From Methylomonas aurea (GTDB taxonomy: Bacteria; Pseudomonadota; Gammaproteobacteria; Methylococcales; Methylomonadaceae): a DNA stretch of 64,000 bases. Numbering within the stretch: position 1 is the first letter of the stretch; each line of letters begins with the position of its first letter. Positions 9,162 through 11,513 of this stretch are shown here, piece by piece. The stretch covers positions 310,001 through 374,000 of the forward strand of contig NZ_JANIBM010000001.1 of assembly GCF_024505045.1 (NCBI RefSeq), in the 5' to 3' direction. The notes beneath the pieces were generated by a model. It had not been told where the DNA came from. It saw only the letters and a program-made list of their open reading frames with translations, and ran no database searches. A program made the position numbers and the translations under genes.

Positions 9162-9529
9162 AAAATGTAGGTCAGCTCAGATAGTGGGGGGGAATTATCA
9201 ATCATCGTTCGGTTGAAACGGACACCAAGTCCGCGGGAATGGGTGCAGACCCTCCAATATTGCTCCAGGGCAGCAATATGAAGGTTATGGAATGCCGGTT
9301 CAGATAACAGACCATTCAAAAGACACCGCCACCGAGTTAACAGTGATGAAAAACGTGGATGAACAATACCTAAATGCGTTCTTCCTGGCTGATCTAGCTG
9401 AACTAGCTGTCGTAGATGGCATCTTGTCCGCGCATGGGGGCTTTTCCAATTTTACAGAATATCGCTGTGGTTAGATGTGGATAAAAACACTCAGTAGAAT
9501 ACCCAATAACTTTGTGGTAGAAATCACAA
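9162..9529. other. intergenic stretch before the riboswitch, no gene seen
   Basis: Frames of about 60 codons exist on both strands but none has a ribosome site or recognisable protein. The promoter of the riboswitch transcript should lie near its right end; a TAGAAT at 9495-9500 could be a -10 element but lacks a good -35 partner. Confidence 0.35.
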
Positions 9530-9612
9530 AACACGAGCAGCTAAACCTATCGTGAGGTAGAGACGGAAAGTCACGGGTCCCTAAATTCGGAAAGCCGGAA
9601 TGCCGAATTCGA
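9530..9612 (+). ncRNA. GEMM-I type cyclic-dinucleotide riboswitch aptamer (candidate)
   Basis: The core matches the GEMM-I (c-di-GMP-I) pattern. A TAAACC is followed by the stem CTATC/GGTAG (9547-9551 with 9556-9560) capped by a GTGA tetraloop of the GNRA class. Next comes GAC-GGAAA-GTC (9562-9572), equivalent to the conserved GACGCAAAGCC hairpin, then ACGGGTC-CCTAA and a second arm AATTCGG/CCGAATT (9584-9590 with 9603-9609). The closing P1 helix is weak (ACGA near 9532 with TCGT near 9615 is possible). GEMM-I RNAs bind c-di-GMP, and a variant class binds cGAMP. The specificity base cannot be judged with certainty here. It lies about 150 bases ahead of a lipoprotein operon on the same strand. 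Confidence 0.72.
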
Positions 9613-9658
9613 CGTCGTTAACGTCATTTTTGGTAGTCCGGCTTTTTACTGCCGAATT
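9584..9658 (+). promoter_or_regulatory. riboswitch expression platform: competing stem/terminator-like hairpin
   Basis: AAAGCCGGA (9591-9599), which lies in the loop of the aptamer's second arm, is perfectly complementary to TCCGGCTTT (9637-9645), followed by more T. The pairing extends: AATTCGG (9584-9590) can also pair with CCGAATT at 9652-9658 after a 6-base bulge. A nested GACGT/ACGTC hairpin (9611-9625) lies inside. The left arm therefore chooses between the aptamer arm and a long terminator-like stem. Ligand binding should favour the first, which predicts an ON switch. The structure is read directly; the direction of control is inferred. Confidence 0.6.
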
Positions 9659-9758
9659 GAAAGTATGGCGATTCACACGCTAGCTATTAAACCGTTTTAG
9701 ATTCATGTTATTTACCCGGCTGGCTTTTGTGCTAGCCACTGACTCCAAAGGTAACCGT

Positions 9759-10439
9759 ATGAAATATGCCTTCGCACTGGTATTGACAGCCTCATTGATC
9801 AGCTTTACCGGTTGTGTCAGTCGAGACATCCATGAAGCCGTCGAAGACCGCGGCCCGCAAGTGGCCTTTGCACCGTTGCCGCAAGCCAGCCGCCTGACGG
9901 TGGCGGTGTCCCGCTTTACCAACGAATCGGTCTATGGCAGCGGCTTGTTTACCGATCAATCCGGCGATCGGATTGGCAAGCAGGCGGCCGATTTGTTGTC
10001 GCGCCATCTGATGGCAACCCAGCATTTCAATGTCGTGGAGCGGCAGGACATCAGCAAACTCAAATCCGAAGCCGAATTGATGGGCAAGAGCGAACCGGAA
10101 TTCAAACAAAATCTGCTCGGCGTCGATGCCTTGATCATGGGCTCGGTGGTGGAGTTGGGACGCGATACCACCGGCGGTGTCTGGCTGATCGGTAAGGAAA
10201 AAACTCAACGGGCGCGGGCGCGGGTGGTGTTGCGCTTGGTCGATCCGAAAACCGGCCAAGTGTTCTATAGCCAGGAAGGCAGCGGCGAAGCGTCGATTTC
10301 CTCGACCGCGACGCTGGGATTTGGCGGCACGGCAGGCTTTGATTCGACGCTGGAAGGCAAGGCCATCGATGCGGCCATTGTGAATATGATCAACAACGTG
10401 GTCAGTACCTTGGAAGCACGCGGCAAAGCCCAGCCGTAA
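9759..10439 (+). CDS. CsgG/HfaB-like outer-membrane lipoprotein
   Basis: A 226-residue lipoprotein. ATG 9759 is preferred because an AAAGGT lies about 7 bases before it and the product begins with a lipoprotein signal ending S-F-T-G-C (Cys19); the longer frame from 9705 would disrupt this. The body, with L-T-V-A-V-S-R-F-T-N-E-S, L-S-R-H-L-M-A-T-Q-H-F-N-V-V-E-R and V-D-A-L-I-M-G-S-V-V-E-L, matches the CsgG fold, whose prototype forms the curli secretion pore. No curli subunit gene is nearby. It is the first gene of a lipoprotein trio with DUF4810 and DUF799 proteins, a recurrent bacterial arrangement, and lies behind the riboswitch candidate. Confidence 0.85.
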   Translation: MKYAFALVLTASLISFTGCVSRDIHEAVEDRGPQVAFAPLPQASRLTVAVSRFTNESVYGSGLFTDQSGDRIGKQAADLLSRHLMATQHFNVVERQDISKLKSEAELMGKSEPEFKQNLLGVDALIMGSVVELGRDTTGGVWLIGKEKTQRARARVVLRLVDPKTGQVFYSQEGSGEASISSTATLGFGGTAGFDSTLEGKAIDAAIVNMINNVVSTLEARGKAQP

Positions 10440-10461
10440 ACCTTTCAAAGTAGGGAAGCGG

Positions 10462-10890
10462 ATGATGCTTAACCGTCTTGGGACAAGGTATGTTGGCGAG
10501 TCCGCTATTGGAATCGCCATGTCGTTGGTGCTTTCCGGCTGCGCACCGCAAGGCTTGTTTTATTGGGGCGACTACGAAAGCAGTCTCTACGAACGCTATG
10601 TCGACAATAACAGCCAGCATACCGATGCCTATTTGCGCGATACGATTACCGCAGCCGAGCAGCATCAGCGCCGCGTGCCGCCGGGTGTGTATGCCGACTA
10701 CGGTTTTTTATTGTACACCCGCGGCGATAAAGCCCGCGCCATCGCCTACTTTCAGAAAGAACGCACGCTGTATCCGGAATCCACGGCGTTGATGAACAAA
10801 TTGATCGAGAAAATTCAGCAGCAAGAAAAAACGCCGGAGCCGAACAGCGAAACCGCCGTACTTCCCACGCAACAGCGGGCCGCGCCATGA
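10462..10890 (+). CDS. DUF4810 lipoprotein
   Basis: A 142-residue lipoprotein with lipobox L-S-G-C (Cys27) and the DUF4810 signature right after it, G-L-F-Y-W-G-D-Y-E-S-S-L-Y. The middle resembles a single TPR-like helical hairpin (Y-G-F-L-L-Y-T-R-G-D-K-A-R-A-I-A-Y-F), followed by a low-complexity tail. Two adjacent ATGs (10462, 10465) are possible starts, with an AGGGA about 8 bases upstream. It lies 22 bases after the CsgG-like gene and overlaps the next gene by 4 bases (ATGA), so the three are one operon. DUF4810 has no established biochemical role; a chaperone or adaptor role for the CsgG-like pore is inference. Confidence 0.85.
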   Translation: MMLNRLGTRYVGESAIGIAMSLVLSGCAPQGLFYWGDYESSLYERYVDNNSQHTDAYLRDTITAAEQHQRRVPPGVYADYGFLLYTRGDKARAIAYFQKERTLYPESTALMNKLIEKIQQQEKTPEPNSETAVLPTQQRAAP

Positions 10891-11513
10891 GAATTGGGTT
10901 TAGTCTGTTAATCGTCTGCCTGTTGCAAGCGTGCGTCGCGCCGCAGCATCTTAATTTGGACGCGTTTTATGCACATCCGCCCCGTTCGATCGTGGTGGTG
11001 CCGGTGGTCAACGAGTCGCCGGAAGTAACCGCCAATTCGGTTTTCATCACCACTATCACTCAACCGCTGGCCGAACGCGGCTATTACGTGTTTCCGGTGT
11101 ATTTGACCGACATGATTCTGCGCGATTTCGGGCTGGTAGAAGCGGGACATATTCACTTATTACCGGCCGAACGCTTCTACGAACTGTTCGGCGCCGACGC
11201 GGTGCTGTTGGTGACGATCAAGGATTGGAGTACCAAGTATCTGGTACTGGCATCGTCGGTGGTGGTCGAAATGGAATATGTCCTGAAAGACACCAGGACC
11301 GGCACCGTGCTTTGGCAGAACAAGCAAACTTATGCGCAGAATTCCGGTGGCGGCGATCCTATCGCGATGGCGATTTCAGCGGCAATCAATGCGCTGATCA
11401 CCGATTATTTGCCGCTGGCCAGGCAAGCCAATTTCATGGCGTTGCAACCGCCAAAGGGTCTTCCCGCCGGGCCTTACCATCCGGAGTATCAGCAAGACAA
11501 AGGCAAGTTTTGA
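10887..11513 (+). CDS. DUF799 (GNA1162-family) lipoprotein
   Basis: A 208-residue lipoprotein with signal peptide ending L-Q-A-C (Cys16). The DUF799/GNA1162 signature is clear: P-R-S-I-V-V-V-P-V-V-N-E-S-P-E-V near residues 32-47, then P-L-A-E-R-G-Y-Y-V-F-P-V and L-F-G-A-D-A-V-L-L-V-T-I. GNA1162 is known as a surface-exposed neisserial lipoprotein. The fold, as in CsgG, has an alternating strand and helix pattern. It is the last gene of the riboswitch operon, so a cyclic dinucleotide would set the level of all three envelope lipoproteins together. Confidence 0.87.
   Translation: MRIGFSLLIVCLLQACVAPQHLNLDAFYAHPPRSIVVVPVVNESPEVTANSVFITTITQPLAERGYYVFPVYLTDMILRDFGLVEAGHIHLLPAERFYELFGADAVLLVTIKDWSTKYLVLASSVVVEMEYVLKDTRTGTVLWQNKQTYAQNSGGGDPIAMAISAAINALITDYLPLARQANFMALQPPKGLPAGPYHPEYQQDKGKF

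Follow-up and report, generated by a model that had tools for sequence, protein, structure and literature searches.

The closest described system to the locus analysed here is the pilM riboswitch of Geobacter metallireducens, an experimentally tested ON-switch with a 25-nt binding window in which C75 is captured by the terminator (PMC9262584). The GEMM-I fold and a terminator that takes the 3′ strand of the aptamer, including the ligand-pairing C, are found both in pilM and here, and the binding window estimated here, about 30 nt, compares with the 25 nt reported there. The two differ in that pilM senses cGAMP and controls pili genes (PMC9262584), whereas the present switch has the c-di-GMP-type G at position 20 and stands before a trio of lipoprotein genes. 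In another methylotroph, Methylophaga nitratireducenticrescens, c-di-GMP riboswitches precede PEP-CTERM genes (PMC12530212), and the same type of riboswitch before surface-protein genes is likewise seen at many Methylomonas loci in this analysis; the lipoprotein trio and the terminator platform described below do not figure in the passages of that article consulted. In the literature searched, nothing was found that joins Methylomonas, c-di-GMP and riboswitches.

Here, we describe in a window of 64 kb, the whole stretch of Methylomonas aurea DNA that was analysed, a class-I c-di-GMP riboswitch that very probably acts as a transcriptional ON-switch for a three-lipoprotein operon. It constitutes a well-supported new case of a known kind of riboswitch.

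The aptamer

The leader region contains the following features, all on the forward strand.

9515 to 9523: possible extended −10 element (TGGTAGAAA), weak, in the same place in a few close relatives
9530 to 9607: c-di-GMP-I (GEMM-I) riboswitch aptamer
9540: G equivalent to Vc2 G20 (c-di-GMP type) in the model alignment; G in 84 of 91 relatives and A in 7
9546 to 9561: P1b hairpin with GNRA tetraloop GUGA (9552-9555), from the model alignment
9569 to 9580: 5′ strand of the aptamer arm P2
9584 to 9590: AATTCGG, the left arm of the preliminary description, able to pair with 9603-9609 or 9652-9658; idiosyncratic
9589 to 9601: 3′ strand of P2 and 5′ strand of the terminator (switching strand), with three-strand covariation
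9589 to 9647: intrinsic terminator with U-tract 9643-9647; −30.8 kcal/mol for 9589-9648
9603: C equivalent to Vc2 C92 (ligand-pairing); C in 87 of 91 relatives, pairs with G9633 in the terminator

The preliminary description of this DNA had read a GEMM-I riboswitch from the letters, and the covariance search bears this out: RF01051 (c-di-GMP-I, GEMM-I) matches 9530-9607 on the forward strand at 42.7 bits (E 5e-5 over the full 64 kb), above the gathering cut-off of 35 bits, and is the sole Rfam match in the window. Like Vc2 and the other members of RF01051, the aptamer carries a GNRA tetraloop on P1b and retains the ligand-contact residues G20, A47 and C92, whose equivalents in the model alignment, in Vc2 numbering, are G9540, A9567 and C9603. 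It departs from the family in a short distal P2, in GGA-AAG in the 3′ strand in place of the usual receptor, and in its low score. The canonical tetraloop receptor CUAA...UAUG is absent from P2, and the altered internal loop is common to the whole subclass. P1b pairs 9546-9551 with 9556-9561. The covariance models place P2 at 9569-9580/9589-9601 (AGUC-A-CGG-GUCC / GGA-AAG-CCG-GAAU; 3′ strand GGAAAGCCGGA), with 9569-9572 and 9574-9576 paired to 9595-9601 and 9578-9580 to 9589-9591, and the second arm AATTCGG/CCGAATT assigned to the aptamer in the preliminary description was therefore misplaced.

The window copy is a below-average aptamer: the outermost P1b pair (C9546-A9561) and G9570-A9600 in P2 are mismatched, position 18 is a C, as in just 5 of the 91 relatives, and the score is 42.7 bits. 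Even with the terminator not yet transcribed, the best fold is more stable than the bare aptamer by about 9 kcal/mol, in a nearest-neighbour model that counts neither tertiary contacts nor ligand. In a small search, RF03167 (c-di-GMP-I-GGC) was the preferred clan member for all five GEMM-I matches of the genome, the window copy included, which at 42.5 bits stays below that model's cut-off of 59. Function of the window copy is probable, with some decay possible.

The terminator and the proposed switch

Folding of growing transcripts gave a terminator of three helices (9589-9599/9637-9647, 9601-9607/9629-9635 and 9611-9615/9621-9625), and the one long hairpin 9589-9647 appears once 9642-9648 has been transcribed. 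The competing stem AAAGCCGGA (9591-9599) / TCCGGCTTT (9637-9645) proposed earlier is part of it; that account misassigned some of the helices and overlooked the two elements that join the structure into one continuous hairpin, the inner hairpin 9611-9625 and the middle helix UGCCGAA (9601-9607)/UUUGGUA (9629-9635). The second CCGAATT to which it pointed is indeed present at 9652-9658 and able to pair with AATTCGG at 9584-9590, but it lies 3′ of the U-tract, so that this pairing can form only after the polymerase has moved beyond the site of termination.

The 5′ strand of the terminator includes the entire 3′ strand of P2 plus the ligand-pairing C9603. Either the bound aptamer or the terminator can thus exist, but not both, as in terminator-capture ON-switches of the pilM type, and c-di-GMP is predicted to turn expression on, a direction that the preliminary description had not given. 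The predicted aptamer, the terminator and their mutual exclusion can all be read from the sequence, and a GEMM-I ON-switch is well supported by it. The full-length terminator is about 20 kcal/mol better than the constrained aptamer at equilibrium, in the nearest-neighbour model without tertiary contacts or ligand; a working switch must consequently decide kinetically, and such a decision is what we infer here. About 110 nt separate the end of the terminator from the start codon, a distance that fits control of transcription and not of translation.

In the absence of ligand, the strand 9629-9647 would invade P2 and capture 9589-9607, including C9603, and transcription would halt at the U-tract 9643-9647. 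The c-di-GMP would have to bind while about 30 nt are transcribed, after the aptamer is complete (9604) and before G9633 emerges; bound in time, it would hold P2, block the terminator and allow transcription of the csgG-like, DUF4810 and DUF799 genes. The output would presumably be more lipoprotein complex at high c-di-GMP. The ligand is likely c-di-GMP, judged by the residues equivalent to G20, A47 and C92, and the 63 GGDEF matches in the genome count in favour of a c-di-GMP ON-switch.

A transcript from the possible extended −10 would begin near 9530. The scan for sigma-70 promoters gave no match at 9515-9523, and as a conserved promoter the element was rejected: it is common to a few close loci but over the 91 relatives does no better than shuffled sequence. 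A box like TTGACAAAAACACTCAGTAGAAA was observed 30-60 nt before the aptamer, at 9471-9500 in the window and in the relatives L097, L123, L135 and L136. These terminator-type loci have unrelated genes, which suggests that the promoter may travel with the switch.

Covariation among relatives

The same platform was found in five further Methylomonas loci, upstream of other genes. In an alignment of seven sequences (A2) the terminator is 94.7% paired, and three of its pairs have changed on both sides; slid controls reach at most 51% and have no such changes. The three-strand covariation can also be seen when the seven are aligned, unfitted, by MAFFT. A covariance model, R1, was built from the seven A2 sequences; it encodes P1b and the terminator, not P2. 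The window copy scores highest under this model of its own subclass, but is part of the training set. Of 237 genomes of the family, 117 have R1 matches, and many of these matches are generic aptamers; of 274 genomes in a sample of the class, only 5 have matches at E ≤ 1e-6, the window genome being among the five. The comparative set comprised 91 distinct loci, each scoring 60 bits or more and together representing 47 genomes of the family, after three opposite-strand palindrome matches had been dropped.

P2, which is absent from the search model, was 96.4% paired in alignment A3, and 7 of its 10 pairs had two-sided changes, counted over 94 rows that include the three palindrome matches; slid controls reached at most 47%. 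The structure of R1 itself was 92.7% paired in the same 94 rows, a fitted value and hence biased towards structure. At the nine positions shared by both helices, 90.0% of the triples from the 91 relatives pair in both structures, and in 36 triples all three letters have changed. When either partner was slid by 1-2 positions, 19-60% were doubly paired, with 0-11 triple changes. Examples, counted as sequences and not as independent events, are 9574/9597/9639 (CGC to UAU in 6), 9576/9595/9641 (GCG to AUA in 6), 9572/9598/9638 (between C-G-C/U and U-A-U, 27) and 9571/9599/9637 (UAU to CGC in 2). This three-strand covariation is the strongest evidence for a switch, and with it across a bacterial family the earlier proposal that a ligand controls transcription by way of a competing stem gains support.

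A minority of loci, mostly lower-scoring, have weak terminators, the weakest at −7.8 to −10.5 kcal/mol, and these may use another expression platform. L214, L230, L239 and L244 have aptamer and shared strand with the terminator weak or missing, possibly a different expression platform.

The operon and its association with the switch

Three genes follow on the forward strand.

9759 to 10439: CsgG-like lipoprotein, 226 aa from ATG 9759, lipobox SFTGC (Pfam CsgG PF03783, 1.1e-28)
10462 to 10890: DUF4810 lipoprotein with a TPR-like C-terminal part (Pfam DUF4810, 9.8e-27)
10887 to 11513: GNA1162-like (DUF799) lipoprotein (Pfam, 1.4e-40)

The Pfam matches agree with the trio named in the preliminary description. 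The first product combines a CsgG domain with a lipoprotein signal, its lipobox read by eye; the signal peptide and an AAAGG upstream make ATG 9759 the likely start, which gives a leader of about 230 nt. The CsgG protein had no match among solved structures, the DUF4810 protein had weak matches to designed TPR chains, and the GNA1162-like protein has a solved relative (4hrv, E 1.8e-25). The curli partners csgA/B/E/F are not beside csgG in the operon, where the neighbours are the DUF4810 and GNA1162-like genes. The trio is defined only by these domain families, and the envelope secretion or assembly complex proposed in the preliminary description is at most a possible reading of it.

CsgG homologues occur in 7 of 37 genomes of the genus and in 26 of 201 in the order. 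Of all trio loci examined, the switch precedes the trio only in the window genome and in a close relative, G016, and Rfam and R1 scans of some 35 other loci with a trio or a CsgG gene found it in G016 alone; other genomes of the genus have the trio alone in common. Homology to G016 begins upstream of the promoter region, at 9451, and runs at 97% identity to exactly the last stop codon of the trio (11513), while comparison of the DNA outside 9451-11513 shows unrelated flanks. Switch and trio therefore form one block within differing surroundings, and they may move as one. The two copies differ by six aptamer substitutions, all 5′ of the terminator, and by none from 9589 to 9658; one of them, A9549C, breaks a P1b pair. 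The sensor may thus be drifting while the terminator is retained.

GEMM-I riboswitches are widespread in the genus, in 30 of 37 Methylomonas genomes and up to 10 per genome, with five matches in the window genome. Examples are L001-L003, L029-L057 and L078-L134, many before PEP-CTERM and filamentous-haemagglutinin-type genes. Of 79 genes behind such matches, 20 have the Pfam PEP-CTERM motif, with further PEP-CTERM-type matches through NCBIfam, and 14 the TPS secretion domain of filamentous haemagglutinins. The first genes behind 72 terminator-type loci, chosen by a simple ORF rule, are diverse, and most look like genes for exported proteins (DUF4347 proteins, GDSL lipases, beta-propeller, PKD, cadherin-like and lectin domains). 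The same switch type stands before GDSL lipase genes at L160, L162, L175 and L195, in two genera of the family. The trio, the sole one seen behind terminator-type loci, fits a surface or export regulon. It is a tentative suggestion, and a rather doubtful one, that it is a c-di-GMP-induced outer-membrane device for export or assembly of methanotroph matrix proteins, and that it was recruited when it captured a cassette of promoter and riboswitch which has spread, as one piece, to the front of unrelated export genes in the family.

Alternative explanations

Ligand could instead favour termination, as in Cd1 of C. difficile, with the AATTCGG/CCGAATT hairpin or another fold as antiterminator. The hairpin exists and could compete with the terminator, but the terminator takes the 3′ strand of P2 and C9603, which is incompatible with a bound aptamer, and the full stem (9584-9590/9603-9609) is present in just 2 of 91 relatives, those in the window genome and G016, so it was rejected both as aptamer arm and as general antiterminator. 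An OFF-switch is accordingly quite improbable. Somewhat less so, yet still unlikely, is a decayed switch whose aptamer has lost binding and whose leader acts constitutively, as an attenuator or a partial terminator. The two mismatched pairs, the C at position 18 and the concentration of changes relative to G016 in the aptamer speak for it; the retention of G20, A47, C92, the GNRA loop and both helices speaks against it, as does a score above the gathering cut-off and the top score under its own subclass model, in whose training set it stands.

Sensing of cGAMP, as in GEMM-Ib, draws on the A at position 20 in 7 of 91 relatives, since G20A is known to shift preference to cGAMP (PMC6274999). The window copy and its closest relative have G at 9540 rather than the A20 of GEMM-Ib, which points to c-di-GMP rather than cGAMP, and we give a cGAMP sensor very little credence. 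Position 20 is A in L170 (G010), L177, L181, L198, L212, L227 and L229, and also in the GEMM-I relatives L041 (G009) and L086 (G017); in these methanotroph genomes cGAMP sensing outside Geobacter is possible. It is equally hard to credit that the working terminator is the hairpin 9611-9625 with the ATTTTT after it, acting independently of the aptamer. It was the sole match of a simple terminator scan, but that scan was limited to loops of 3-8 nt and blind to the long hairpin, of which 9611-9625 is the inner part. Moreover, its T-run is missing in relatives from G026, G036, G015 and G010, whereas the U-tract after 9642 is conserved.

Biological meaning

The predicted c-di-GMP ON-switch belongs to a heavy use of c-di-GMP riboswitches by methanotrophs for surface and exported proteins. 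The covariation over 91 loci provides direct comparative evidence for the GEMM-I ON-switch mechanism, and the covariance model is ready for finding further switches. The trio is little studied, and in the literature searched just three papers name DUF799 or DUF4810; the switch would put it under a specific signal in one lineage, and its role becomes testable by raising c-di-GMP.
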